Positions 2,291 through 16,088 of a stretch of 56,044 nt of DNA are shown here, piece by piece. Below the pieces are notes generated by a model. The model did not search any database and was not told where the DNA came from. It saw only the letters and a list, made by a program, of their open reading frames with translations. The stretch's first letter is position 1; each line of letters opens with the position of its first letter. Made by a program: the position numbers and the translations under genes. This stretch comes from Veillonellales bacterium (GTDB lineage: Bacteria; Bacillota; Negativicutes; JAAYSF01): the NCBI GenBank assembly GCA_039680175.1, contig JBDKTO010000112.1, forward strand, positions 1 through 56,044, read 5' to 3'.

Positions 2291-2500
2291 ATGCAATATC
2301 GTTGTCCCCAATGTGGTGGCTGGCGTCAATTCCATGGCGTTCATGGTGGATTTGGTCACTTTGGTCACGGATTTGGTCATTTCGGCCACTTTGGACATTA
2401 TTATGGAGGTTTTGGTGGCTTGGGACTGGGGCTGGGATTAGGATATTTATTGGGTGCTTATCCTATTTACGATTATGATTACGATGATTTTTATTATTAA
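2291..2500 (+). CDS. His/Gly-rich small protein with N-terminal CxxC
   Basis: This 69-residue protein opens with YRCPQCGGW, a CPxCGG half zinc-ribbon. A run of GHFGH/GFGHFGH units follows (about residues 16-36, roughly eight His alternating with Gly and Phe), then a Gly/Leu-rich stretch GLGLGLGLGYLLGAYP, then an acidic Tyr/Asp tail ending DYDYDDFYY. The gene has a clear GGGGAGGGATG ribosome site and a hairpin terminator behind it, so it is probably real and monocistronic. Composition suggests metal binding or a surface or aggregating peptide. I do not recognise the family. Confidence 0.6.
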   Translation: MQYRCPQCGGWRQFHGVHGGFGHFGHGFGHFGHFGHYYGGFGGLGLGLGLGYLLGAYPIYDYDYDDFYY

Positions 2501-2524
2501 TTCAATTGCTGTATAAGATAAAGC

Positions 2525-2543
2525 CGCCCTCTTATGGAGGGCG
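2525..2543 (+). terminator. Hairpin after the His/Gly-rich gene
   Basis: CGCCCTC (2525-2531) pairs with GAGGGCG (2537-2543) across a 5-base loop. It is followed by a U-rich but interrupted tail (CCTTCTATATAT). It lies 25 bases after the stop codon at 2500 and probably ends that transcript. Confidence 0.55.
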
Positions 2544-2688
2544 CCTTCTATATATATAATTTCTATAACTGCCCAATGTCCGGCTGTTCATTTTTAGTAA
2601 AAACATCATCAGGGATGGAATATTGCTGCATAGAACCGTAAGCAAAAATCTCATACTATCATAGACAGCTCTTATTAAGGAGACTATT

Positions 2689-3408
2689 ATGAATGAACTG
2701 TTAGATATAGGTTGGCGAACCTCTCTAGTTTTATGTCTATTATTAATTATTGCACGAATATTAGGCAGACGAACATTGGCACAATTGACCTTTTTTGATT
2801 TTGCAGTAGGTATAATTATCGGAAATATAGCAGTGCTGATTCTATCAGATAGATATATGGAAATTGTTTTAATATTGTCGAGCTTAGTTATTGTTACTTT
2901 TTGGGTTCTTGTTATTAGTTTTGTATCCAGAAAGTCATTACCGGCAAGAAAGATTTTAGAGTCTCAGCCGATATTAGTCATATATAAAGGGCGCATATTA
3001 GAAGAAAATTTAAAAAGAAGGTACTATAATGTTAATGACCTTTTGGAATTGCTAAGAGAACAGGAAGTATTTTCACCCTCCCATGTTGAGGCAGCATTGA
3101 TTGAAACTGATGGGGCATTAAGCGTATTAAAGAAAACAGAGAAGCAAAATGAGTCATCATATGCTTCACAAACAAATAAACTCCCTTTTAGTAATATGCT
3201 TGGCAAGGAATTAATTATTGATGGGGAAATTATATTTGAAAACTTAAAAATTGCTGGGCTCTCTTATGAAGAATTAATTAATAAATTAGCTTTGCGCGGG
3301 ATTGCGAAGCCACAGGAAATAATGCTGTGCATGTTAAGCCCTGAGGGAGAATTATATATAGATATGAGAAAAGACCTGCTTATTAAAGATAATAACGACG
3401 ATTTCTAG
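2689..3408 (+). CDS. DUF421 (YetF-like) membrane protein
   Basis: This 239-residue protein matches the DUF421/YetF family. An N-terminal membrane domain (about residues 8-80, three hydrophobic segments) includes the family-typical ARILGRRTLAQLTFFDF and the FAVGIIIGN segment. A cytoplasmic domain follows with an ILVIYKGRILEENLKR stretch and the DLLELLREQEVFSP segment usual for the family. Length is close to other members. The start is well supported by TAAGGAG upstream of the ATG. In Bacillus, YetF-like proteins are linked to the spore or envelope; no enzymatic role is established. It is monocistronic here. Confidence 0.85.
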   Translation: MNELLDIGWRTSLVLCLLLIIARILGRRTLAQLTFFDFAVGIIIGNIAVLILSDRYMEIVLILSSLVIVTFWVLVISFVSRKSLPARKILESQPILVIYKGRILEENLKRRYYNVNDLLELLREQEVFSPSHVEAALIETDGALSVLKKTEKQNESSYASQTNKLPFSNMLGKELIIDGEIIFENLKIAGLSYEELINKLALRGIAKPQEIMLCMLSPEGELYIDMRKDLLIKDNNDDF

Positions 3409-3834: not shown

Positions 3835-5130
3835 TTAATTGCTTCCTATAGCTTTGTCGAGTCGGGCTTTGCTGATGTTGTAGTCAAACAATGAGTTGGT
3901 ATAATTTGTTTTTGCCTGGGTTAACGCCAGTTCGGCATCCATAACATCCAGATTCGTATCAACTCCGGCACTATAAGCTTTTTGGGCAATCTCAAAATTG
4001 ACACTGGCTTCTTCAACCGCTACTTTGTTAGTAGAAATTCGCTTTTCCGCTTCTCTCATATTCAAATAGGCGTCGCTGATTTCCAACGAAATATCATCAT
4101 GTGTTTGTCTGGCTTGTTCCTTGGCAGCTAATACTTCTGATTGCGCCTGCTTGATTTTAGCATCCGTATTACCCGAATCGAACACATTAAGCTGTGTGAT
4201 CAGCATGGCAGTGCTGTCTTCATTCTTAGTACCGGCGAAGTCGGTGTCATCCCAGGCTACCGTGCCTTTTAGCATAACCTTGGGGCGGTTCTCGCTCCGG
4301 GTAATGTTAACCTGGGTTTCTCTTATTTTTACAGTTGTTTGTTGTTGCCGCATTTCTGGCCGATGGTCTAATCCAAACGTAATGACATCATCTTGACTGA
4401 GAGTGAATTGTTGATAAATTAACGGTTCTGTAAGATTGATTTCACTGTGCAAAGGCAATCCCATAGTTTTATTGAGACGATAAATCGCTAAGTTATAATC
4501 ATTTTGCGCTTTTACCAAAGTATTTTCCGCATTGGCGAGTTTGACTTTGGTCTGCAATACGTCATGCCAAGGGACTACCCCTTTATCAAACATATCTAGA
4601 ACATGATTCAGGTGAACTTTAAAATCAGCGACTGTTTGTTTAGCAATTTCTAATAACAGTTGGGATTGTAGCGCTTGGTAATAACCCTGACGGCTCTCTA
4701 ACTTAAGGTTATTTTTAGTGGCGGCTATTTCAAGCTGGGAATTTTCTTGTCCCAGTTGAGCCTGTTTAATTGAATTTTCTACTTTGCCGCCAGTGTACAG
4801 CGGGATACTGGCAGTCAGTGTATTGCTAAAGTAATTGTATGCATCGACCGATGACAATGTCGGCTGCCATGAATGCGGCGCATCGGAGCGCAGATCAATA
4901 TGTGTGAAATCGAGGGATGCTTTTTTATTGGATTGAGCTTCTTTGATTGCCCAAACGGTTTGTTCTTCACGTGCCGCTGCAATTTGCAATGCCGGATTAT
5001 TTTTAAAGGTTAGCGCAATGCTGTCATCAAGGGAGAGGTCTATTGGCTGCGCAAATGCAGGCTGAGATAATGCCAGGAAAGTTAGAATGGATAAGAAAGT
5101 TGTTTTAAAATAAGTAGAATGTAACTTCAC
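3835..5130 (-). CDS. TolC family outer-membrane efflux protein
   Basis: This 431-residue protein has a signal peptide cut after ALSQPAFA (about residue 27) and then the duplicated helical architecture of the OEP/TolC family: residues 30-220 and 225-425 each hold long Ala/Gln/Asn-rich helices. Typical motifs are ALTFKNNPALQIAAAREEQ near the start and ALTQAKTNYTNSLFDYNISKARLDKAIG at the end. It would form the outer-membrane channel for the RND pump encoded just upstream on the same strand. The start is GTG (5128-5130) with AAAGGAG ahead. Its presence is direct evidence for an outer membrane. Confidence 0.9.
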   Translation of the reverse strand: MKLHSTYFKTTFLSILTFLALSQPAFAQPIDLSLDDSIALTFKNNPALQIAAAREEQTVWAIKEAQSNKKASLDFTHIDLRSDAPHSWQPTLSSVDAYNYFSNTLTASIPLYTGGKVENSIKQAQLGQENSQLEIAATKNNLKLESRQGYYQALQSQLLLEIAKQTVADFKVHLNHVLDMFDKGVVPWHDVLQTKVKLANAENTLVKAQNDYNLAIYRLNKTMGLPLHSEINLTEPLIYQQFTLSQDDVITFGLDHRPEMRQQQTTVKIRETQVNITRSENRPKVMLKGTVAWDDTDFAGTKNEDSTAMLITQLNVFDSGNTDAKIKQAQSEVLAAKEQARQTHDDISLEISDAYLNMREAEKRISTNKVAVEEASVNFEIAQKAYSAGVDTNLDVMDAELALTQAKTNYTNSLFDYNISKARLDKAIGSN

Positions 5131-5200
5131 AATGAGCTCCTTTCTCGTAGGTTCGTGGTAGTCATAAATTTTTCTTCTGAATAGAACCGTTGCAAAGAAT

Positions 5201-8200
5201 TTATGCTAACGGAGCATCGCCTTGTTTATCGGGTCCCAGCGGAACCGGCAGCGTATGGTTGGACTGTACCCTGTAACAGGTGGCATACATAACCGGTAAA
5301 ACCAGGAGAGTAAGTATGGTGGCACCTAATAAGCCGGCGGCAATGGTTACAGCCAGCGGCCCCCAGAAAACACTGGATAGAAGGGGAACCATTCCCAAAA
5401 TTGCCGCGGCTGCTGTCAGCAAAATAGGCCGCAGCCGGATGACCGTTGCTTCAATTATGGCATTCCACGGAGAAGCCCCGGCGGCGAGCTGTTGGTCAAT
5501 TTGGTCGATAAGAATGACTGAGTTACGCATTATGATGCCTGACAAGGCTAAAATGCCAAGCTGCACCACAAAACCCAGAGGCTTGCCGGAGATGAACAGG
5601 CCTACGGATACACCGATAATGCCCAAAGGCGCCGTCAGCATCGTAAGCATCATTTTTGGGATACTTTGCAACTGGGCCATCAAGATGATCATAATAATAA
5701 TGAACATGGCCGGTACCGGCTCCAAAAGGAAGTGAAGGGCTTTAACACTGTCTTCATTCGAACCGTCGTATTCTATGCTGTAGCCAAAGGGCAGGCTTTC
5801 GCGCAGCGGTTTAAGCTGATCGTATATTTGTGTGGCCACATCCTGGCCGGTTACATTTTCAGCCTTGAGTTCTGCCTGCACCAGGATCATTGGTTTTAAA
5901 TCACGGCGGTAAATAAGGCCTTCTTCGGCATCATAGCTGATTTTGGCAATTTGATCCAAAGGTACATAGCGGCCATTACCCGTGTGAATGTTGATATTTT
6001 TTACGGATTCGGGATTGTTGCGGTTTTGAGAGTCAAAGCGAAAAACCATATCCACGGTTTTGTCATCTTCCCGGAATTGCGTTATAGGCAAGCCGGAAAG
6101 CTGGGTTTGCAGAGAGGTCGCCAACGGTGCGGACGCAACTCCCAGTTTCCTGGCTTTATCCTGATCAATGGCAAGATGGACAATCTTGCTTTTCTCATTC
6201 CACTTCAGGTTGACATTTTGCACATGGGGATTCGAAGCCATGGCCGCTTTTACCTGTTCGCTGATTTCACGAACCTTGTCCACGTCGTACCCTTTTACCC
6301 GGAGCATGACAGGATAATCAGCGGCAGGGCCGATACTAATAACTTTAGTGTGATATTGTACGGCGGGGAAATCGTCATTCAGCACTTTTGCGTATTTGGC
6401 ACGCAACTGGTCTCTTACTTTATCATCTTTGGCGACAATGACAAATTCGGCAAAATTAGTTTTGGGCAGTTCAGGTTCAATTGTCAAAACAAAGCGCGGG
6501 GCGCCCTCACCAACATGATAGGTATAGTAATCAATTCCGGGATCATCACTAATTCTTTGCGCAAACTCCTTGGCAACTTGTTCCGTATTCTCGAGGGAAG
6601 CGCCTTCCTGGAGTCTAAGCTGCACAATCAATTCTGGACGGGATGATGACGGAAAGAACTGCTGTGTAATATTTGTAAGTAAAAGCACGCCTAAAGCAAA
6701 GGAAATGACGGTGCCTCCCAGCATTATACCGCGGTGGCTTAGGCACCAGGAAAGAAGTCCTCTAAACTTATGGTATAAGGGAGTGTCGTAAACGTCATGG
6801 CTGTCTTCGCCGGAATGAGGCTTGACTTTAATGAATAAGTAGCCAAACAGCGGAGTGGCGGTGCCGGCTACCAGCCAGGATATAAGGAGCGCCATAGCAA
6901 TAACGTAGAACATGGTTACACAGTATTCAGAGGCATTTCCGTTTGAGAAGCCTACAGGAATAAAGCCCGCACAGGTAACTAATTCACCGGTCAGCCGGGG
7001 ATAGGCGGTGGAAGCATAGGCAAATTTGGCGGCGGCTAAACGATCCCAGCCTTCTTCCAGCTTCACGACCATGGTTTCTATGGTGATAATAGCATCATCA
7101 ACCAACAGACCCAAAGCAATAATCAGGGCACCCAGGGAGGTTCGATGCAAATCGATACCGGCAATTTGCATGACCGTGAACACGGTCGCAATGACCAGCG
7201 GTATGCAAAGCGCCACAATCATTCCGGAGCGAACGCCCAAACTGATAAAACTTACAATTAAAACAATGCCGATCGCTTCCGCCAGTGATTCGACAAACTC
7301 ATCGATGGAGTTTTCCACAACTTTGGGCTGGTTCACCGTTTGGTGGAGTTCCAAACCGGCCGGAAGTTCTTTTTGGATGTGATCCACGGCTGTTTCCATA
7401 TCTTTTCCCAGGTTCAGAATATTACCGCCGGTATCCATGGCCACCGCAATGCCGATAGCCGGCTGGCCGTTGTAATAGAACTGGGGATCGGAGGGGTCGG
7501 AATAACTGCGGCTTATTTTGGCGATATCCCCTAACCGGAAGCTGCGGCCGTTTACTTCAATGGGAAGGCTTTGAATATCTTCAAGGTTCTCAAACATGCC
7601 GGTAACCCGCATATACACATTGTCACTAGCGGTTTGAAGCATACCCGAAGGCGCCATAGCGTTTTGCGCTTGCAGGGTGGATAGAATTGTCTCCGGAGGA
7701 ATCCCGAGTTGCGCTAATTTACTGTTTTCAATCTCAACGTAAATTTTTTCGGTTTGCACGCCCAGTAGTTTGACTTTCCTTACGTTGGGAACCCCCAGAA
7801 AGACCCGCCGGATTTTTTCCGCTTTTTCCCTCATTTGTTCGTAGGAATAGCCGTCGCTGGTAAGCGCGTACACAATACCGTAAACTTCATCGAAGCGATC
7901 ATTAAACACCGGATCCATGACGCCGGTAGGGAAGGTGCTCTTTATGTCATTGACCATATTTCTGGCTTCCACCCAGCTGCTTCTTATTTCTTTTTTTGGC
8001 ACATTGTCTTTGAGGTTCACATAAATAACAGTAAGGCCCGGTGTGGAATAGCTTTTTAAGTAGTCAAGCCCCGGCAAATCCTGAAGCTTTTTTTCGACTT
8101 TGTCGGTGACTTGCTCTTCCATTTGGCGGGCGGTAGCGCCCGGCCAGGGAACCGCGATGACCATCTGCTTAATTACGAAATCGGGATCTTCCGCCCGGCC

Positions 8201-8305
8201 CATACTTTTATAGGAGAATAGGCCGGCAACGAAGGCGAGGATGACAAAAAAGTAAATAAACTGCTTATGGTTCAGCGCCCACTCCGTCAGATTGAATTGG
8301 TTCAT
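5201..8305 (-). CDS. RND efflux pump inner-membrane subunit (AcrB-like)
   Basis: This 1034-residue protein is full length for the AcrB/MexB-type family. It has an N-terminal transmembrane helix (about 14-34), a first periplasmic loop with VPWPGATARQMEEQVTDKVE, a block of helices near 335-530 that includes GLLVDDAIITIETMVVKLEEG with the paired Asp residues used in proton transfer, a second periplasmic loop, and a second helix block near 860-1015 with SGIIMRNSVILIDQID. It uses the proton gradient to export substrates through the adaptor and the TolC-like channel. The start ATG overlaps the adaptor's stop by 4 bases (ATGA), so the genes are coupled. The substrate cannot be read from the sequence. 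Confidence 0.93.
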   Translation of the reverse strand: MNQFNLTEWALNHKQFIYFFVILAFVAGLFSYKSMGRAEDPDFVIKQMVIAVPWPGATARQMEEQVTDKVEKKLQDLPGLDYLKSYSTPGLTVIYVNLKDNVPKKEIRSSWVEARNMVNDIKSTFPTGVMDPVFNDRFDEVYGIVYALTSDGYSYEQMREKAEKIRRVFLGVPNVRKVKLLGVQTEKIYVEIENSKLAQLGIPPETILSTLQAQNAMAPSGMLQTASDNVYMRVTGMFENLEDIQSLPIEVNGRSFRLGDIAKISRSYSDPSDPQFYYNGQPAIGIAVAMDTGGNILNLGKDMETAVDHIQKELPAGLELHQTVNQPKVVENSIDEFVESLAEAIGIVLIVSFISLGVRSGMIVALCIPLVIATVFTVMQIAGIDLHRTSLGALIIALGLLVDDAIITIETMVVKLEEGWDRLAAAKFAYASTAYPRLTGELVTCAGFIPVGFSNGNASEYCVTMFYVIAMALLISWLVAGTATPLFGYLFIKVKPHSGEDSHDVYDTPLYHKFRGLLSWCLSHRGIMLGGTVISFALGVLLLTNITQQFFPSSSRPELIVQLRLQEGASLENTEQVAKEFAQRISDDPGIDYYTYHVGEGAPRFVLTIEPELPKTNFAEFVIVAKDDKVRDQLRAKYAKVLNDDFPAVQYHTKVISIGPAADYPVMLRVKGYDVDKVREISEQVKAAMASNPHVQNVNLKWNEKSKIVHLAIDQDKARKLGVASAPLATSLQTQLSGLPITQFREDDKTVDMVFRFDSQNRNNPESVKNINIHTGNGRYVPLDQIAKISYDAEEGLIYRRDLKPMILVQAELKAENVTGQDVATQIYDQLKPLRESLPFGYSIEYDGSNEDSVKALHFLLEPVPAMFIIIMIILMAQLQSIPKMMLTMLTAPLGIIGVSVGLFISGKPLGFVVQLGILALSGIIMRNSVILIDQIDQQLAAGASPWNAIIEATVIRLRPILLTAAAAILGMVPLLSSVFWGPLAVTIAAGLLGATILTLLVLPVMYATCYRVQSNHTLPVPLGPDKQGDAPLA

Positions 8306-9426
8306 AAAGAGTCACCGCCCAATTTCACTTTCTGCCCCTCATTGAGCTTATGGACTCCGGCCGTTACGATCCGGTCGCCTTGCTGCAGTCCGGCGACAAC
8401 CTGAATGGTTCCATTGCCGAATTTACCGGTTTTAATTTGACGTAAGGCAACCGTGCCGTCGGTTACGACCCAAACATACGGGGTGTCGCCGTTTTGGTAA
8501 ACAGCCGACAATGGAATCGTTGCCGTTGATTGTGCTTCGCTATCGAAAAGGCTAACGGCAGCGGTCATGCCCAATTTCATTTCAGGCGGCGGGTTGAGTA
8601 AGCTGATGCGTACTTTGTAGGTGCGGGTTACCGGATCAGCCATGGGGGCAATTTCCCGCACTTTACCTGCCGCTGATACATTAGACAATGCCCAGAATGT
8701 CACTTTAATTTGCTGCGCTTTTCGTAACTCTTCGATCCGATTTTCCGGAACGCTGATTTCTACTTCCCGTTCCCCATCCTGAACAATAGTCAGTACCGGC
8801 TGTCCGGCACTGACCACCTGACCCGCTTCCGCCTTGATGGCAGAGACGACGCCCGGTTTGTCGGTACGCAGCAGGCTGTAGTCAAGCTGGTTGGCCCCCT
8901 GCGTACGTTGGGCAGAAGCCTGCTGTACCGTAGCGGAGGCTACTTCATAGGCACTGACATACTGTTCGTAAGTCATGCGGCCGACAGCGCCGTCTTCGTA
9001 GAGCTGCCGGTAGCGGTTCAAATTGCTTTCCGCCAGCCGGAGCTGTGACTCAGCGGAGTATACTTGGGCCGAAGCGCTGTTTACAGTTTGCTGAATATCC
9101 TTGGGATCAATCTGCATCAGCACATCGCCGACATTTATTACGCTGCCCAGTTCTACATTCCGTTTTATAATTTTGCCGCTGACCTGGAAAGCCAGCTGGC
9201 TTTCATAGCGTCCGCGGACTTCACCGGAATACGTGTATTCCTGCGCAGAGCCTGCGGCGCCAATTACGGCGGTTTGGACCACTGTAATATCATCTGTGAC
9301 TGTTTTGACTTGACGGTGTGAATTCCATATAATCCCGCCGATAATACACAATGCGATTACTAGTGCAGCTAATCCGTAATATATTTTTTGTTTTGGCAGT
9401 TTGGTCAACCAGTTCCATTGGTGCAT
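8302..9426 (-). CDS. RND efflux periplasmic adaptor (membrane-fusion protein)
   Basis: From ATG at 9426 this is a 374-residue membrane-fusion protein of the AcrA/HlyD type. I chose this start over one 17 codons further up because GAGGAG lies at the right distance. An N-terminal anchor (KIYYGLAALVIALCIIGGIIW) is followed by a lipoyl half-motif (VSGKIIKRNVELGSVINVGDVLMQIDPKD), an alpha-hairpin (about 95-160), the second lipoyl half (GVVSAIKAEAGQVVSAGQPV), a beta-barrel and a membrane-proximal domain (VVAGLQQGDRIVTAGVHKLNEG). It is first gene of the three-gene efflux operon and probably under TetR control through the sites near 9551. Confidence 0.9.
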   Translation of the reverse strand: MHQWNWLTKLPKQKIYYGLAALVIALCIIGGIIWNSHRQVKTVTDDITVVQTAVIGAAGSAQEYTYSGEVRGRYESQLAFQVSGKIIKRNVELGSVINVGDVLMQIDPKDIQQTVNSASAQVYSAESQLRLAESNLNRYRQLYEDGAVGRMTYEQYVSAYEVASATVQQASAQRTQGANQLDYSLLRTDKPGVVSAIKAEAGQVVSAGQPVLTIVQDGEREVEISVPENRIEELRKAQQIKVTFWALSNVSAAGKVREIAPMADPVTRTYKVRISLLNPPPEMKLGMTAAVSLFDSEAQSTATIPLSAVYQNGDTPYVWVVTDGTVALRQIKTGKFGNGTIQVVAGLQQGDRIVTAGVHKLNEGQKVKLGGDSL

Positions 9427-9550
9427 GATTTCACTCCTCGTTTTGGTTACTATTAAGAAACATAGATAAGGAAACACGTTTTTTCATTCTGGCATCCGGT
9501 TGATTGATTTGATTTTGGCCCAAACAACCGGAGGTGACGGAAGAAACTAA

Positions 9551-9587
9551 TTTTGTACCGATATTACATTATCGGTATTTATGGTAC
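9551..9587. promoter_or_regulatory. Candidate TetR operator upstream of the efflux operon
   Basis: Nested inverted repeats are visible: ACCGAT (9557-9562) with ATCGGT (9571-9576), and outer GTACC (9555-9559) with GGTAC (9583-9587). The left half TTTTGTACCGA(T)AT recurs ahead of the adjacent tetR gene at 10227. It lies 125 bases upstream of the adaptor start, a plausible repressor site. This is inference from repeat structure. Confidence 0.5.
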
Positions 9588-9597
9588 AGATACGCAT

Positions 9598-9627
9598 TTT
9601 TAAATCACACTTTTGTGTGATTTAAAA
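9598..9627. repeat. Perfect 13-bp inverted repeat between tetR and efflux operon
   Basis: TTTTAAATCACAC (9598-9610) pairs perfectly with GTGTGATTTAAAA (9615-9627) around TTTT. It lies just past the tetR stop. Without a clear U-run outside the stem it is an uncertain terminator; it could also be a protein-binding palindrome. Confidence 0.5.
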
Positions 9628-9644
9628 TAGCAGACAAAAAATTT

Positions 9645-10208
9645 TTATTTTTTAGATGTGCTCAGTCCGAATACGATAATATCCGCCATTGCTGATAATG
9701 CATCTGCATATGTCAGGTTGCTTTCTTCCAGGAATCGGTAGTTGAACAGGTCATTTGTCACACTCGTTATAATTTGTTTAAGCACAGATACATTAATCGG
9801 GCGAAGTGAGTGGGTTTCAATACTCTGGACGACAAGAGAAGTCAGGCGATTCAGATGTTCGTCGCGGAAGTCTGACACCAGCTGCCATTCATTTGGATAA
9901 TAGTGGCGCAGATCGTCATAAAGACTGTTATTGTTTATGGAACCGAATACCTGCGGTGAAACTTTTAGCAGAGCCTGAAATTTTTCCGCAGGGGATAGCC
10001 CAGGGTTATTGTAGATTTTATCCGCCTGTTCCTCGACATCGTGGATCGCTGTAGCTAAAATATCATGCACCAGTTCATTTTTGGAGGAAAAGTGCTCGTA
10101 TAAAGAAGTTTTACTAAGACTGAGACGCCGTGCAAGGTTGCTCATTGTAAATTTTACACCGCGGGTTTTCATCTCGTCGGCCGCGGCCATAAGAATTCGA
10201 TTACGCAA
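9645..10208 (-). CDS. TetR/AcrR family transcriptional regulator
   Basis: This protein has a TetR-type N-terminal helix-turn-helix: RILMAAADEMKTRGVKFTMSNLARRL, then SLSKTSLYEHFSSKNELV, in which the LYEHFSSKNEL recognition region is diagnostic. The C-terminal ligand-binding region (about 60-187) is divergent as usual. I prefer the TTG start at 10208 because AGGTGG sits 6 bases upstream; an ATG at 10223 would add five residues and overlap that ribosome site. It is transcribed in the same direction as the efflux genes, but 220 bases with candidate operators separate them, so it probably represses the efflux operon and itself. Confidence 0.88.
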   Translation of the reverse strand: MRNRILMAAADEMKTRGVKFTMSNLARRLSLSKTSLYEHFSSKNELVHDILATAIHDVEEQADKIYNNPGLSPAEKFQALLKVSPQVFGSINNNSLYDDLRHYYPNEWQLVSDFRDEHLNRLTSLVVQSIETHSLRPINVSVLKQIITSVTNDLFNYRFLEESNLTYADALSAMADIIVFGLSTSKK

Positions 10209-10226
10209 ATAAAACCACCTCATTAC

Positions 10227-10254
10227 TTTTGTACCGAAATGACAAAATGGGTAC
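10227..10254. promoter_or_regulatory. Candidate TetR operator at the tetR promoter
   Basis: TTTTGTACCGAAAT at 10227-10240 is almost identical to the half-site at 9551-9562, and GTACC (10231-10235) is mirrored by GGTAC (10250-10254). It lies within 50 bases upstream of the regulator's start, which suits autorepression. This is inference from the shared motif. Confidence 0.5.
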
Positions 10255-10357
10255 TATTGAATTCAAATTAAGATTATACCACTTTTTAACATGTGTCAAT
10301 AGCTATCATGTAAGAAATTAAAATTGTGAGGCAATGCTTCTAATTATGATAATGAAG

Positions 10358-10404
10358 GTGTTTATTAAGCAATTAATGACCAACTTAATAAACACATTTT
10401 TTTT
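10358..10404 (+). terminator. Hairpin with U-tract, orphan
   Basis: GTGTTTATTAAG (10358-10369) pairs perfectly with CTTAATAAACAC (10384-10395), followed by a run of T. It has intrinsic-terminator form on the plus strand, yet no plus-strand gene lies upstream. It may be a leftover from deleted DNA or insulation for the promoter that follows. Confidence 0.6.
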
Positions 10405-10406
10405 TA

Positions 10407-10435
10407 TTGACAAATGATTACGAGAGGCATATCAT
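10407..10435 (+). promoter_or_regulatory. Sigma-70-type promoter candidate
   Basis: TTGACA (10407-10412) and TATCAT (10430-10435) are separated by 17 bases, reading toward the amidohydrolase remnant and the flavodoxin/hydrolase pair. The surrounding stretch 10209-10590 holds no gene that I can support, only the operator, the orphan hairpin and this promoter. Confidence 0.5.
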
Positions 10436-10590
10436 TATTGTAACCAGCGTACTATAATTGTCTTTCTGGTACACGACAAAACGAAAAGCAATCAAGTAGG
10501 TAAATGGATTTATAAAATTATTTTCTTAAAAACTTTTAAAACAGTCGCAAAAAGACGCTGAAGAAAGAAAAAGACGTAGGAGTCTGCCTG

Positions 10591-10781
10591 CCTAGACAGT
10601 TGGCTGCGTTGCTGCCATTGGTAGAAACGGCTCATTTACTATACGGCTGATTATCCCTATACGCCGGCGGGTGACTGTATTTATTTGGCGGGCGCGTGAC
10701 AAGACAAACGTGATTACTGATGAGCAGCGGCGTGCGATATACCGGGATAATGCGATAAATTTATTTCCAAGGCTAGGATAG
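10591..10781 (+). pseudogene. Amidohydrolase (amidohydrolase_2) C-terminal remnant
   Basis: Read across three frames, this stretch gives PRQLAALLPLVETAHLLYG (frame of 10591), then ADYPYTPAGDCIYLAGA (frame of 10646), then DKTNVITDEQRRAIYRDNAINLFPRLG and TAG (frame of 10698). LLYG(S/T)DYPYTP and the closing DNA-x-x-LFPRL pattern are typical of the C-terminus of amidohydrolase_2 enzymes of the 4-oxalomesaconate hydratase / decarboxylase type. Two frameshifts and the lack of the N-terminal two-thirds show it is dead. It lies immediately upstream of the flavodoxin remnant, so the original unit may have included it. Confidence 0.7.
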
Positions 10782-10790
10782 TAATAGTTA

Positions 10791-11066
10791 ATGAAAGGGG
10801 GCGATAAAATAATCCGAAATGTCAACAACGTTGGCTCTTATCGGGAAAATGAGGTGGGCATTGTTGTCTCTAACTATCTGGAGGCTTTGGGAACCGCATG
10901 TTGGGAACGTACTATTGATAGAAAACTGACATTAGAAACAAAAGCATTGCTAGAACAGAAATTGATTCCCAATGAAGTGAATATACGAGAAGTTAAAAAA
11001 CATGTTGACAGTATATTGGTAAACGCCAATTTGAAAATGAAGCAGGAAGGAGAAACCAATGCCTAA
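10791..11066 (+). pseudogene. Truncated flavodoxin-family gene (C-terminal third)
   Basis: From about 10842 the frame encodes RENEVGIVVSNYLEALGT, then RKLTLETKALLEQKLIPNEV, then IREVKKHVDSILV. It aligns residue by residue with the C-terminal 65 residues of the intact flavodoxin-like protein at 12317-13027. The flavin-binding N-terminal two-thirds are absent, and the 17 codons before the match look unrelated. It overlaps the next gene's start by 8 bases, just as an intact upstream gene would. An intact reading frame does not make it functional here: the remaining segment has no cofactor site. It may survive as a translational leader for the hydrolase. Confidence 0.75.
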
Positions 11067-11961
11067 TGTAACGGCCAATGGAATTCAGATCGAGTATGAT
11101 ACTTTCGGCGATAGCTCTTCTTCAGCTTTACTATTAATCGCCGGCAATGGTGCCCAAATGCTCTTCTGGGATGCCGAGCTCTGCGAACTATTAGCGAAAA
11201 CAGGGCTTTTTGTAATTCGTTTTGACAATCGCGATGCTGGCCTTTCGACCAAATTTGATGAAGCCGGAGTCCCGGATATTATGGCTGCAATCAAAGCCGC
11301 TATGGAAGGTAAGGATGTTGCAGCGGCATATTCCCTGGACGATATGGCAGATGACTGTGCGGGGTTACTGGATGCATTGCACGTTGAAAGAGCGCATATC
11401 TGCGGCGCTTCGATGGGCGGCATGATAGCCCAAGTTGTTGCTTATCGGCATCCACGGCGTGTTCTGAGCCTGACTTCCATCATGTCAAACACGGGGAATC
11501 CCCATCTTCCGCAGGGAAAGCCGGAGGCCATAGCTGCCGTTGTCGCGCCGCCGCCGGCGGAGCGCACAGCATATATTGAACACAATATGAATGTATGGCG
11601 AAAGATTTGGAGTCCCGGTTTTCCCTTTGAGGAGAAGCGAGCTCGGACATACCTGGAGAAGAGCTATGACCGATCCTATTATCCACAGGGAATGGCGCGT
11701 CAAAATATGGCGATTCTTTCCCGCGGCGATAGAACAGCATTGCTTTCGTCCATTAAAGCCCCCACACTCGTAATACACGGGTCCGGAGATCCGCTGATCC
11801 CTATCGAAGCGGGGAAAGATACGGCTCGCGTAATTCCTAGGGCAAATTTATTGATCATTGACGGAATGGGGCACGACCTCCCCAAGGGGGCTTGGCCGGA
11901 AGTAGTAACCGCTATTTCCCGTCATATAAAAAAGGTAACACCCCCCAGCAATAGCCTTTGA
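11059..11961 (+). CDS. Alpha/beta hydrolase
   Basis: This 300-residue alpha/beta-hydrolase-fold enzyme has an oxyanion region LLLIAGNGAQMLFWD (about 24-38), a strand with VIRFDNRDAGLS, a nucleophile elbow GASMGGM near residue 118 (catalytic Ser), the acid Asp in IHGSGDPLIPIEAG near 245, and the His in DGMGHDLPKG near 273. The full triad is visible and length is normal. It resembles esterases of the aclacinomycin-methylesterase/RdmC type, but substrate cannot be assigned. AAGGAG precedes the ATG. A decayed second copy of its first 42 codons lies at 13063. Confidence 0.88.
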   Translation: MPNVTANGIQIEYDTFGDSSSSALLLIAGNGAQMLFWDAELCELLAKTGLFVIRFDNRDAGLSTKFDEAGVPDIMAAIKAAMEGKDVAAAYSLDDMADDCAGLLDALHVERAHICGASMGGMIAQVVAYRHPRRVLSLTSIMSNTGNPHLPQGKPEAIAAVVAPPPAERTAYIEHNMNVWRKIWSPGFPFEEKRARTYLEKSYDRSYYPQGMARQNMAILSRGDRTALLSSIKAPTLVIHGSGDPLIPIEAGKDTARVIPRANLLIIDGMGHDLPKGAWPEVVTAISRHIKKVTPPSNSL

Positions 11962-11977
11962 TTATATTTTAGGAACA

Positions 11978-12022
11978 ACTCCAACCAAAACGCTTCCGAC
12001 GTACGTTTTGGTCTGGAGTTTT
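11978..12022 (+). terminator. Terminator after the alpha/beta hydrolase
   Basis: ACTCCAACCAAAACG (from 11978) pairs with CGTTTTGGTCTGGAGT (to about 12019) with one bulge, followed by TTTTG. It lies 17 bases past the stop at 11961. Confidence 0.65.
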
Positions 12023-12085
12023 GTAAAACGATAATGCTTTCGCCAATACGTCATGTCCTCTGTTCCCGTATGGAACTTTTCCTGT

Positions 12086-12129
12086 AAAACTCAACCACCA
12101 CCTGCTTTAGCAGGTGGTGGTTGAGTTTT
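12086..12129. repeat. Perfect 20-bp hairpin in the 11962-12316 gap
   Basis: Arms at 12086-12105 and 12110-12129 are perfectly complementary around TTTA, with A-tracts outside on the left and T-tracts on the right, so it can terminate transcription in both directions. No minus-strand gene ends here, so it may instead be a mobile-element end or a repeat unit. Besides this and the terminator at 11978, the 355-base gap holds no gene I can support. Confidence 0.6.
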
Positions 12130-12316
12130 TGTCAGATGACTGGTATTGACAGATACGTTAGAAAGCAATATTATGGCAACGAAATGTTTGTACTTGTTTT
12201 GTATAATGGGTAAAAATAGATGAAGCAGCGTTTTTTGGACAGTATCAGTAAATTTTATTTTCCGGTTGAAATAAAGCACAATAAAACAAAAAGCAAAATG
12301 AAAGAAGTGTGATGCA

Positions 12317-13027
12317 ATGAAAATTGCAGTGATTAACGGCAGCCATCGCGGCAGAAATGGCAATACGAATATTATGAGTTCTGCTTTCTTAAAGGGAGCA
12401 AAGGAAGCAGGAGCAGAAACGGTAACTGTTTTTTTAGCAGAAAAAGAAATTAAATACTGTACGGCGTGTAAGGTCTGTTGGTTTAAAACACCAGGGAAAT
12501 GTGTCATCAAAGATGATATGGCGGAGATTATATCTCTTATCGAAGATGCGGATGTTCGTGTTTTGGCGACGCCGCTTTATTTTGATAATATTTCAAGTAT
12601 GCTAAAAACTTTTATAGATCGACTCATGGTAACAGCCAGCCCCTATTGGGGAAAAGATAGTCAAGGAGAATGCCGTCATTTAACAACGAAAGCGGCTCCA
12701 CAGATGGTCATGCTGGCAAATTGTGGCTTTCCGGAAAGATCACATTTCCAGGTGATCTCCCATTGGCTTAAACGACATGCGCGGAATCTCAATGCACAGA
12801 TAATTGGTGAAATATATGTTCCCCAGGGGGCGCTGTTGAGTGTCCGGGAAAACGAGGTGGGCATGGTTGTCGCTAACTATCTGAAGACTTTGGAAATTGC
12901 AGGCAGGGAGATTGCCATCAATCGAAAATTGACAGCAAAAACAATGGAATTGCTAGAACAAAAATTTATTCCGGATGAAGTTTATATACGGGAAGTTAAA
13001 AAGTATGTTGATAGTCTATTGGATTAA
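12317..13027 (+). CDS. Flavodoxin-family NAD(P)H-dependent oxidoreductase
   Basis: This 236-residue protein belongs to the NADPH-dependent FMN-reductase / iron-sulfur-flavoprotein group. It opens with KIAVINGSHRGRNGNTNIM, the FMN phosphate loop (GSxRxxxNT). Residues 47-65 hold CTACKVCWFKTPGKC, a Cys cluster also seen in relatives. ATPLYFDNISSMLKTFIDR near 95-115 matches the conserved A-T-P-x-Y flavin-contact region. The C-terminal 65 residues match the truncated copy at 10791. It probably reduces a quinone, nitro or metal substrate using NAD(P)H; the partner is unknown. The next gene downstream is a pseudogene of the hydrolase. Confidence 0.85.
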   Translation: MKIAVINGSHRGRNGNTNIMSSAFLKGAKEAGAETVTVFLAEKEIKYCTACKVCWFKTPGKCVIKDDMAEIISLIEDADVRVLATPLYFDNISSMLKTFIDRLMVTASPYWGKDSQGECRHLTTKAAPQMVMLANCGFPERSHFQVISHWLKRHARNLNAQIIGEIYVPQGALLSVRENEVGMVVANYLKTLEIAGREIAINRKLTAKTMELLEQKFIPDEVYIREVKKYVDSLLD

Positions 13028-13062
13028 GATATTGGAGAACGAGGCAGAAAGAGGAAAACACA

Positions 13063-13188
13063 ATGCTTAATGTGACGGCCAGTTGAATTCAGATTGAGTA
13101 TGATACTTTCGGCGTTAGGTCTTTGTCGGTCTTGCTATTAATTACTGGCAATGGTGTCCAACTGCTCTTGTTGGACGCCGGACCCTGA
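13063..13188 (+). pseudogene. Decayed alpha/beta-hydrolase gene, 5' fragment
   Basis: The frame starts ATG and encodes MLNVTAS, then a TGA, then IQIEYDTFGV, LLLITGNGVQ and LLDAG. It aligns codon by codon with the first 42 residues of the intact hydrolase at 11059 (MPNVTANGIQIEYDTFG). An in-frame TGA replaces the Gly codon at position 8, and the similarity ends near 13188 with another stop. The promoter-distal 250 residues are deleted. It occupies the same relative position after its flavodoxin gene as the intact pair does. Confidence 0.8.
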
Positions 13189-13310
13189 ATATGATGTATT
13201 ATGTGGAATTTTATAGAAAGAGCCCGGTTGTTCAGAAAATGTCCAGAATGGACTGATACAATTAAATTAACAAAAGCTATTTGCATTTTGAATTAATATA
13301 GCTTCTTAGT

Positions 13311-13390
13311 TAACTGGCAAACTTGCTGAAAGGCAGGGACGCAAAGCCATGGGTCTACAGGTTTTTCACCTACGATTGCCAGGCTGCATA
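13311..13390 (+). ncRNA. c-di-GMP-I (GEMM-I) riboswitch
   Basis: The aptamer core GACGCAAAGCC lies at 13339-13349, preceded by CTTGCTGAAAGGCAGG (a GAAA tetraloop hairpin) and followed by ATGGGTCTACAGG, all hallmarks of the GEMM-I class. CTGGCAA (13315-13321) closes the aptamer with TTGCCAG (13377-13383). The same TTGCCAG can instead pair with CTGGCAA at 13402-13408 to make a terminator, so ligand binding should favour readthrough. It precedes the small Cys-rich gene at 13462. Confidence 0.88.
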
Positions 13391-13413
13391 AAAGTGCGGT
13401 CTGGCAATTTTTA
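13376..13413 (+). terminator. Riboswitch expression platform terminator
   Basis: ATTGCCAG (13376-13383) pairs with CTGGCAAT (13402-13409), followed by a T run. The 5' arm is shared with the aptamer-closing stem, so the two structures are mutually exclusive. Confidence 0.8.
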
Positions 13414-13461
13414 TTTGATTTTGTTTAAACCGCCAAGATTAAGACCAGGGAGATGTAAGAA

Positions 13462-13689
13462 TTGGACGAAAGGAAATGTTCTTGTGGGAGTAAACAATTT
13501 GAAAACATTGATGTAACGCCTACGGGAATTATGCAAACAAGATATTTTACAAGATGTACACGGTGCGGGTTAGTCATATCCACGCATAGATGCGGCAGGC
13601 CATCGACAATTCGGGAGTTGTGGGGATCGTTAGGAATTACTAAGATTTTGCGTGCGGCTCATACAATTTTGGGAATAAGCCGGGTGTGA
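13462..13689 (+). CDS. Small Cys-rich protein under c-di-GMP riboswitch control
   Basis: This 75-residue protein starts with TTG, with AGGGAG 9 bases upstream. The N-terminal half contains CSCGS (about 7-11), then CTRCG (about 32-36) and HRCG: a small zinc-ribbon-like set of Cys. The C-terminal half (about 45-70, RELWGSLGITKILRAAHTILGIS) is amphipathic and basic, suggesting membrane or nucleic-acid contact. I do not recognise the family. Its position directly behind a c-di-GMP-I riboswitch places it in the motility/biofilm/surface regulon. That regulatory link is the strongest clue to its role. Confidence 0.65.
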   Translation: MDERKCSCGSKQFENIDVTPTGIMQTRYFTRCTRCGLVISTHRCGRPSTIRELWGSLGITKILRAAHTILGISRV

Positions 13690-13935: not shown

Positions 13936-14259
13936 ATGAAAAATATTGTAAAAAAAATAGTTGTCTATTCAATGGTAGGTATGCTGCAAATTGGGTTGGG
14001 TGCTTCAATGGTTTCTGCCTCTCCTGCACATGGTCCTGAAAGAGTACAATTTGAAGAACATCATCGTAATCACGATAACGATCGGCAGCGTGAACATGAT
14101 AGGCGTATACGAGAAGAAAATGATCGGCATGAGAGCGAAATGAAAAGGCATCCTGGCGAATCGAGAAGGCATTGGCATGAACGCCAGAAACATGAGAATG
14201 AACGTCATCAACACGAACTAGAACGTATTCATCACGAATTTGAACATCGCGGTTGGTAA
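13936..14259 (+). CDS. Secreted His/Arg/Glu-rich protein, hypothetical
   Basis: This 107-residue protein has a signal peptide (about residues 1-28, MKNIVKKIVV then a Gly/Leu/Met-rich core, cleavage near SASPA). The mature part is extremely polar: after the first ten residues it is nearly all His, Arg, Glu, Asp, Asn and Gln, with repeated RxHE/HExERH units and about 20 His in 75 residues, very likely one long charged helix. A GAGGAGGG ribosome site and a terminator frame the gene. It may buffer metal or protons in the periplasm, but the family is unknown. Confidence 0.7.
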   Translation: MKNIVKKIVVYSMVGMLQIGLGASMVSASPAHGPERVQFEEHHRNHDNDRQREHDRRIREENDRHESEMKRHPGESRRHWHERQKHENERHQHELERIHHEFEHRGW

Positions 14260-14264
14260 GAGAA

Positions 14265-15824
14265 TTATTCAAGAGTCACTCTGTCATTTGGGACAGGGTG
14301 GCTTTTTAGCATATTAGCAACAAATATATCTACAAGCTGCGGATCAAATTGACTTTCTTTTTCATTCTTGAGTTCTTGCAAGGCCTCCGCAGGAGCCATA
14401 ATTTTTCGATAGACTCTCTTTACCGTCATCGCCGCGTAAGCATCGGCTATCGCTAGAATACGGCCTTCAAAAGGGATTCCGTTTTTCATCCGGCCATGGG
14501 GATATCCGTATCCGTCATATCGTTCATGGTGATTCTCAATCGCCTTTCCTACGGTATCATCAATAGCGAACAATTTTAAAAAACTCATCCCGAACTCAAC
14601 ATGATTTTGCATTAAATGATACTCTTTTTCGCTTAATTTGCCGGGCTTACGCAGGATATGATTTGAAACAGCAATTTTCCCAATATCATGAAGCCAGCCC
14701 GCCAGATAAAGACGGTCAACGAAGGAAGCATCCATTCCTGCTTTTTCTGCTAAAAACGCACTGTAATGAGCAACGGCTTGGGAATGTACATAACTGTATA
14801 TATCTTTTTGTTCCAATACAGTTAGAATTTCCTGAAAGTTCTCCGGAATATTGTTAACGTTGTCATGCAAGGTGGGATGCATATTTTTTAATGTTTTATT
14901 ACAATACATATTCTTGTCAGCTAAATTGATCAATTCTTCAATATTCATCTTTTCTGTCTTGCTTTGTAAGGCTATTCCGTAAGAAAAAGCAATTTGTATT
15001 GGATTTAGATCATTATCAGTGACATAACAGGTTGTTTCTAACTGCTCAAGCATAGCAGCAACTGCCAAAGCATCTCCGCTCTCTTGTCCAAGGATAAGAA
15101 CAAATTCATCCCCGCCTAGCCGGGCAATCGCTGATTCTGAAATGACAAGCTTTCGCAATGCCGCAGCGAATTGAATCAGGACTTTATTACCGATAACATG
15201 TCCGTAAGTATCATTAATACTTTTAAAATTGTCAAAATCAATAAGAGCTACGATTACCTGCTTGCCGGCAGACAGCATTTTTTGACCAAGATGGATTGCA
15301 TGGGTAAAAGTGCTTAATCCCGTAAGCGGATCGGTGATGCTTGCTTGATAAAAACGATTGCGCTCTACTGATAAATTGCGGAAAAAGCGTACCACCATAC
15401 TGGCTAATAAGGCAAATAAAATAGTGCAGATGATTTTTACAACAATGAGTGCAGATATACCTCCGTCATAATTAATAAAGTGAAATGTAAGAGTTGTTAC
15501 TGCCAATATAGAAAAAAAAGGGTTCGGTAATACCGGGGCATATAGAAACCCGGCATTAATAATAAAAGGAGTAAAGGCATCCGCACCTATGCTTTTATAA
15601 GCGGCTATGGCATTCAACAGCCAATGATGACTGATAAGGGCTGCTGCGGCAAAGCCATAAGCGGTATTTTTTCGTCTAAATCGTAACGCAAGCAAGAGAA
15701 ATGCAGGAAATAATATAGTGGCGGCGTTAAAAATTCCCGGCGGAACTGCAATAAATAAAAAACCGGTGAATATGAGACTGAAAAGCGCATAAAGGACGTA
15801 AAATTTTGAGAGATTTTTAAACAC
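14265..15824 (-). CDS. Membrane GGDEF + HD-GYP c-di-GMP protein
   Basis: This 519-residue protein has about six transmembrane segments in residues 8-150, a GGDEF domain (about 165-320; DPLTGLSTF, then ARLGGDEFVLIL) and an HD-GYP phosphodiesterase domain (about 345-500; GWLHDIGKIAV, then NHHERYDGYGYP). Both active-site signatures look intact, so it may make and degrade c-di-GMP; I see no RxxD inhibitory site before GGDEF. The start is GTG at 15824 with AAAGGAGAA upstream. A c-di-GMP-I riboswitch and terminator lie in its leader, so the ligand it controls probably regulates its own expression. Confidence 0.92.
   Translation of the reverse strand: MFKNLSKFYVLYALFSLIFTGFLFIAVPPGIFNAATILFPAFLLLALRFRRKNTAYGFAAAALISHHWLLNAIAAYKSIGADAFTPFIINAGFLYAPVLPNPFFSILAVTTLTFHFINYDGGISALIVVKIICTILFALLASMVVRFFRNLSVERNRFYQASITDPLTGLSTFTHAIHLGQKMLSAGKQVIVALIDFDNFKSINDTYGHVIGNKVLIQFAAALRKLVISESAIARLGGDEFVLILGQESGDALAVAAMLEQLETTCYVTDNDLNPIQIAFSYGIALQSKTEKMNIEELINLADKNMYCNKTLKNMHPTLHDNVNNIPENFQEILTVLEQKDIYSYVHSQAVAHYSAFLAEKAGMDASFVDRLYLAGWLHDIGKIAVSNHILRKPGKLSEKEYHLMQNHVEFGMSFLKLFAIDDTVGKAIENHHERYDGYGYPHGRMKNGIPFEGRILAIADAYAAMTVKRVYRKIMAPAEALQELKNEKESQFDPQLVDIFVANMLKSHPVPNDRVTLE
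14274..14307 (+). terminator. Terminator of the His-rich gene, inside a convergent gene
   Basis: AGTCACTCTGTC (14274-14285) pairs with GACAGGGTGGCT (14292-14303) allowing two G-U pairs, then TTTTT. It ends the 13936 transcript. The same DNA encodes the last residues of the convergent GGDEF/HD-GYP gene, whose stop is at 14265. Confidence 0.7.
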
Positions 15825-15938: not shown

Positions 15939-15959
15939 CGCCGCGCTAGTTATCCTTGC

Positions 15960-16036
15960 GGCCTGGCAATCATAGTCATTCTTTGACTTTAGACCCATAG
16001 CTTTGCGTCTGCTATCTTTCGATAGAGTTGCCCTTT
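15960..16036 (-). ncRNA. c-di-GMP-I (GEMM-I) riboswitch, second copy
   Basis: On the minus strand the core reads GACGCAAAGC (16009 to 16000), preceded by TATCGAAAGATA (GAAA hairpin) and followed by TATGGGTCTAAAG. The closing stem uses GGCAA (16032-16028) with TTGCC (15969-15965). It resembles the copy at 13311 in core and spacing. A terminator palindrome follows directly, indicating control by premature termination of the c-di-GMP enzyme gene. How ligand binding affects that terminator is not clear from the sequence. Confidence 0.88.
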
Positions 16037-16088
16037 ATGTATAAATACAATTTATACAATTATATGTTATTATAAAAAAAATATAAAG

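Follow-up and report, generated by a model that had tools for sequence, protein, structure and literature searches.

Tandem copies of a predicted TetR-controlled operon, probably split by the loss of different genes, in a Veillonellales bacterium

Gene content of the two tandem copies

The window, that is, the whole stretch of 56,044 nucleotides of Veillonellales DNA that was analysed, contains two tandem copies of one gene run, the arrangement that the tandem-duplication model calls for. Copy 1 consists of the tail of a flavodoxin-like gene (FLAV) followed by an intact alpha/beta hydrolase gene (HYD), and copy 2 of an intact FLAV followed by the head of HYD. Two pairs of direct repeats, 10842-11019 / 12845-13022 (178 nt, 79% identical) and 11048-11183 / 13052-13187 (136 nt, 80% identical), are in register, with offsets of 2003 and 2004, respectively. 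In a whole-genome search, the FLAV-tail stretches match each other with E=7e-38 and the HYD-head stretches with E=6e-30, which excludes chance resemblance.

The collinear repeats agree with the sequence-only reading of this locus, in which a unit of FLAV and HYD occurs twice, with FLAV cut in copy 1 and HYD in copy 2, and their shared offset bears out its claim that homology runs over the FLAV/HYD junction in both copies. The extent of the unit had to be revised, however: homology reaches further upstream than the gene pair, to the promoters and to amidohydrolase remnants. Because this upstream homology includes an amidohydrolase remnant and the promoters P1 and P2 (see below), the duplicated unit spans approximately 10400-13188.

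The intact HYD of copy 1 (11059-11961, + strand) is an open frame of 300 aa that matches PF00561 with 84.7 bits, is 89-91% identical in amino acid sequence to the Sporomusa orthologues, is preceded by a strong Shine-Dalgarno sequence of its own (GGAAGGAG), and contains the nucleophile motif G-x-S-x-G as GASMGG. It aligns over nearly its full length to 8pzg (E 9e-75) and to EstX 11tv. A strict macrolide esterase assignment was rejected, as HYD scores below every curated cut-off (NF052610, 203 bits vs 420; EstT, 159 vs 450). Judging from these comparisons, HYD is a distant relative of the macrolide esterases EstT/EstX, the nearest among the curated models, and in its pump and TetR surroundings it is a possible ester-detoxifying enzyme. 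The 3' flank of HYD in copy 1 (11962-12087, + strand) is conserved, with 80% identity to the corresponding flank in Sporomusa ovata. The HYD 5' remnant of copy 2 (13063-13188, + strand) comprises 42 codons from the ATG at 13063, with TGA at codon 8 (13084-13086) and codon 42 (13186-13188), in accord with the earlier description of a 42-codon hydrolase with an in-frame TGA.

The intact FLAV of copy 2 (12317-13027, + strand; 236 aa, open) passes the gathering cut-off of PF03358, NADPH-dependent FMN reductase / flavodoxin-like (73.6 bits; cut-off 24), and is 87-91% identical in amino acid sequence to its nearest orthologues. By this profile match, FLAV is a flavin reductase-like, PF03358-type flavodoxin-fold protein. 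Its translation carries the cysteine motif CX2CX2CX7C (CTACKVCWFKTPGKC), which is also present in Sporomusa silvacetica, with one change between the cysteines. Iron-sulfur flavoproteins (Isf) are characterized by a compact cysteine motif with a bound 4Fe-4S cluster. The FLAV 3' remnant of copy 1 (10836-11018, + strand; 61 codons, still open) matches only residues 175-235 of the 236-aa FLAV, at 66% amino acid identity, and lacks the FMN-binding part. Its reading frame continues to the TAA at 11064-11066, overlapping the start of HYD.

The amidohydrolase is represented by debris in both copies. In copy 1, a 3' remnant (10576-10775, + strand; 81.4% nucleotide identity), the reading frame of which is broken and interrupted by TGA, corresponds to residues 274-341 of the amidohydrolase of S. 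silvacetica, and in copy 2, the last ~25 nt of the gene are joined to P2 in a deletion scar (12249-12275, + strand). A genome search found no intact amidohydrolase of the operon kind elsewhere. The amidohydrolase was thus lost from both copies, and therefore not every gene retained one working copy.

Promoters, operator-like sites and terminator

The best two sigma-70-like matches in 9450-13600, each with 11/12 positions and a 17-nt spacer, lie at 10407-10435 and 12146-12174 and occupy homologous places in copies 1 and 2. The first belongs to P1 (10400-10473, + strand; TTGACA at 10407, TATCAT ending at 10435), which is 73.7% identical to the S. ovata operon promoter, and the second to P2 (12143-12252, + strand; TTGACA at 12146, TATTAT ending at 12174), which is 73% identical to the operon promoter of S. 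silvacetica and 71.6% to that of S. ovata. Just behind P1 and P2 are operator-like GTAC-N16-GTAC sites at 10449-10472 (0 mismatches) and 12190-12213 (1 mismatch). A predicted TetR operator of the same form is located in the tetR promoter (10231-10254), with a sister site before the pump (9555-9578, 1 mismatch), and comparable sites are found in S. ovata, S. silvacetica, Sporomusa acidovorans and one further genome (G014). With one mismatch allowed, the pattern is not rare in the window (14 matches vs 7.5 expected), so its weight derives from position and conservation. A version with a fixed central motif gave no matches, leaving plain GTAC-N16-GTAC as the useful form, which is plausible as the TetR operator.

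Between the copies lies a perfect 20-bp hairpin with a T run (12087-12130, + strand; MFE -38.8 kcal/mol, z -7.9), a predicted terminator. The hairpin occurs once in the genome; a dispersed repeat as the cause of the duplication was accordingly dismissed.

Because each copy kept a promoter and an operator-like site, with the hairpin between them, FLAV and HYD are predicted to form two separate single-gene units under one repressor. We infer promoter, operator and terminator function from motif, position and predicted folding. The sequence-only reading had concluded that one working copy of each protein remains but that the two are separated; FLAV and HYD do lie apart, and, with promoters of their own, are predicted still to make up one regulon.

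Directly behind the dead HYD head, there is a c-di-GMP-I riboswitch (13306-13391, + strand), the 3' side of which overlaps an intrinsic-terminator-like stem (13374-13409), with short ORFs nearby (13462-13689 and 13936-14259). A second c-di-GMP-I riboswitch (15954-16042) precedes a gene encoding a GGDEF + HD_5 protein (14265-15824, - strand), a c-di-GMP enzyme that is probably under c-di-GMP control.

The pump cluster and its probable horizontal origin

Upstream of the two copies are genes for an RND pump (5201-8305; ACR_tran), its neighbouring periplasmic adaptor (MFP; 8302-9477, - strand; TIGR01730, 253.6 bits) and a TetR-family regulator (9645-10223, - strand; PF00440), which is 80% identical in amino acid sequence to the S. 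ovata protein encoded at the same position beside the operon. The TetR protein is predicted to repress the pump, itself and both copies of the unit. An outer membrane efflux protein gene (3835-5130, - strand) adjoins the RND pump gene; the alignments to S. ovata and S. acidovorans are nearly contiguous across its place, so that the gene is either extra here or lost there.

The region ~5181-9457 shows 88.8-90.4% nucleotide identity to S. ovata / S. acidovorans. Most of the block from the pump to FLAV and HYD is at 88-90%, and tetR at 81-83%, vs ~74% DNA identity to Sporomusa for rpoB. HYD-like DNA was detected in 8 of 380 genomes of the class, scattered over several families. Because of the 88-90% identity against 74% for rpoB, together with this patchy spread, the cluster from the pump to HYD probably was acquired horizontally. 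No plasmid carrier of the unit was found among 72,556 plasmid records, which yielded just two short HYD-like matches, and a literature search on the Sporomusa cluster found nothing specific.

The much greater proximity of the cluster to Sporomusa compared to the rpoB of the same genome, in a draft assembly of 121 contigs with a contamination of 4.33%, could also signal a collapsed or chimeric repeat or a contaminant contig. Collapse, however, cannot yield copies that are 20% different, and beyond either end of the cluster, the same contig runs on with no such identity to the Sporomusa stretches used for comparison, making an assembly or binning artefact exceedingly improbable.

Ancestral gene order and deletion scars in relatives

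The check for an undivided ancestral pair in relatives, proposed in the sequence-only reading, succeeded in S. silvacetica, where the order is promoter region, Amidohydro_2 protein, FLAV (1483-2220 of locus L056) and HYD (2298-3197), with 77 bp from the FLAV stop to the HYD start; FLAV and HYD are each ~91% identical in amino acid sequence to the intact gene in the window. The S. ovata and S. acidovorans clusters (NZ_ASXP01000006.1 and NZ_FNAM01000040.1, respectively) share with the window the pump, TetR, promoter, operator-like sites, and FLAV and HYD of the same families, and both encode the amidohydrolase. They differ from the window in that S. ovata has one complete operon, which lies next to tetR and the RND pump and shows the same order with two additional genes (L058), whereas in S. 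acidovorans, the canonical site has only the HYD 3' end, fused to a short amidohydrolase-like stretch, with the intact HYD and FLAV on the same contig ~18 kb and ~25 kb from the amidohydrolase, respectively. In a metagenome-assembled genome (MAG) labelled Neobacillus sp. (JAQSXG010000221.1), which contains a Sporomusa-like operon at ~90% identity, the order is FLAV, a DJC28_CD gene, acyltransferase-like ORFs and HYD; this contig is probably mis-binned or mislabelled. Among the relatives searched, there was no genome with both copies complete and none with only one gene lost.

Comparison with these operons locates the deletions. In copy 2, the deletion of the amidohydrolase extends from the promoter region to the 3' end of the gene, and in the relatives, similar GTAAA-like words are found at these two places. 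Copy 1 lacks the FLAV-HYD spacer that is present in S. silvacetica, and the FLAV-tail ORF runs into the HYD start because the deletion of the spacer took the FLAV stop. The deletions presumably passed through short repeats.

Comparable debris was identified in other hosts. The S. acidovorans scar, with its amidohydrolase-like stretch and HYD 3' end (L223, reverse strand 13580-13650), suggests that this genome, too, formerly had a second copy. In S. ovata, a second fragment of HYD lies on a separate contig (C5:243102-243269 of its assembly G317; 92% nucleotide identity). Taken over three genomes, this debris may mean that the cluster has repeatedly undergone duplication and loss. The S. acidovorans cluster also contains a group II intron RNA match between tetR/promoter and the amidohydrolase (L223 8478-8552), with a reverse transcriptase-like ORF near it.

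Selection on fragments and intact genes

Private changes were counted at those codons that do not vary among the relatives compared, and the counts are small. The FLAV tail of copy 1 has 9 nonsynonymous and 3 synonymous changes, vs 0 and 3 in the FLAV of copy 2, and the HYD head of copy 2 has 8 and 3, vs 2 and 2 in the HYD of copy 1. Full-length comparisons of FLAV with S. silvacetica, S. ovata and the MAG give a dN/dS of 0.12-0.14, and those of HYD with Sporomusa-type genes give 0.15-0.18. The substitutions fit reciprocal relaxation, with the fragments relaxed and their intact partners under purifying selection. For FLAV and HYD, the claim of reciprocal loss made in the sequence-only reading thus stands, given the undivided pair in relatives and this substitution pattern; it does not extend to the amidohydrolase, which is gone from both copies.

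As the FLAV-tail ORF (10791-11066) has remained open and extends 8 nt into HYD, counted from the ATG, it might act as a functional leader that couples HYD translation. We consider this very unlikely, considering the 9 nonsynonymous vs 3 synonymous changes at conserved codons, the separate, strong Shine-Dalgarno sequence of HYD, and the origin of the overlap in the deletion that removed the FLAV stop.

Origin of the second copy

The dS between the copies is 0.48 (CI 0.28-0.77), compared to 0.27-0.41 among the alleles of S. silvacetica, S. ovata and the MAG. The dS of the copies to the Sporomusa-type alleles is 0.28-0.48, and the fraction of bootstrap replicates in which the two copies are more distant from each other is 0.71-0.97. 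Because the copies diverge like alleles of different Sporomusa-type genomes, a recent local duplication in this lineage is unlikely. The sequence-only reading had pictured a duplicated FLAV-HYD pair, and the head-to-tail layout and matching spacing are in favour of a recent tandem duplication of this pair alone within the species. However, the promoter and the amidohydrolase were duplicated as well, and the copies are 77-80% identical, below the identity of either to most Sporomusa-type alleles. On the extent of homology and the divergence, this scenario was rejected, and overall we regard it as very improbable.

Both an ancestral tandem duplication and a second acquisition are possible. Under the latter, a diverged allele from another Sporomusa-like donor would have come to lie beside the resident one, followed by reciprocal decay of the xenologues. 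The dS and bootstrap values above are in line with such an origin, as is the movement of the whole cluster between families. Trees were built for the 183-nt FLAV tail, the 126-nt HYD head, both joined, and the full genes, and were mostly star-like. For the FLAV tail alone, the AU test speaks against sister copies (p=0.036), and the quartet sites are fewest for the pairing of the two copies (1 site, vs 8 for a split into copy 1 plus S. ovata and copy 2 plus S. silvacetica, and 3 for the third pairing). These 8 sites, however, fall within 33 nt and may represent one conversion tract; once the full FLAV is used for the tree, sister copies are compatible with the AU test (p=0.20); and the HYD head is uninformative (p=0.25 and 0.15). 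Moreover, immediate head-to-tail placement is the product of tandem duplication. We therefore view a second acquisition as a serious possibility that nonetheless falls well short of being likely.

Proposed history and comparison with models of gene-order change

Most probably, a TetR-controlled operon came to be present in tandem copies that lost different genes, leaving HYD and FLAV as single-gene units in swapped order. The homology, the gene content, the ancestral order in relatives, and the contrast between relaxed and constrained substitutions are direct observations. We infer the order of events and the origin of the second copy as follows. The starting point would be an operon under TetR control that comprised the promoter, the amidohydrolase, FLAV and HYD and belonged to the probably horizontally acquired RND-pump cluster; two copies of it would then have come to stand in tandem. 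Thereafter, the two would have lost different genes, mainly through deletions: copy 1, the greater part of both the amidohydrolase and FLAV, so that HYD was left; copy 2, most of HYD and all but a little of the amidohydrolase, so that FLAV was left. With the promoters and their operator-like sites kept, and the hairpin, this would result in two single-gene units, HYD and then FLAV, under the same repressor, and the amidohydrolase would vanish altogether. The outcome suggests that a split operon can retain common control if the operator stays in each copy. The functional consequence is probably modest, and the locus presents a clear but ordinary snapshot of bacterial gene-order change in a duplicated detoxification operon.

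More tentatively, and with somewhat less than even probability, the locus could be a frozen intermediate of duplication and loss that preserved the regulatory parts of each copy, such that one operon became two separately promoted, reordered units within the TetR regulon, with the process repeating in the mobile cluster in other hosts, as the remains of HYD in S. ovata and S. acidovorans would indicate. If this is true, the cluster is a natural series for testing the route of gene-order change described by the two models considered below.

The tandem duplication - random loss (TDRL) model describes gene-order change in mitochondrial genomes (PMC3283314). As in that model, the tandem copies at this locus have each lost other members of the gene run, and FLAV-HYD has turned into HYD-FLAV. 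The differences are that a bacterial operon is involved, that the losses left readable remnants, that one gene is gone from both copies, and that the copies may not come from simple duplication.

Under the SNAP hypothesis, duplication followed by the loss of different genes from each copy fixes a new bacterial gene order, and dosage selection that keeps the duplication is required; a finished event is without diagnostic trace, and the authors propose seeking pseudogenes with matching active copies (PMC7055797). At this locus, different genes were inactivated in each copy, and pseudogenes and matching active copies remain, so that the locus is an operon-scale trace of the SNAP sort, in which the survivors, the remnants, both promoters and the ancestral order are all readable. 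It differs from SNAP in scale (~2 kb per copy vs tens of kb or more), in the old divergence, and in that the genes are not known as essential. In its gene content and order, the outcome fits TDRL and later-stage SNAP, and would make the locus a good specimen of a known kind rather than a new kind.
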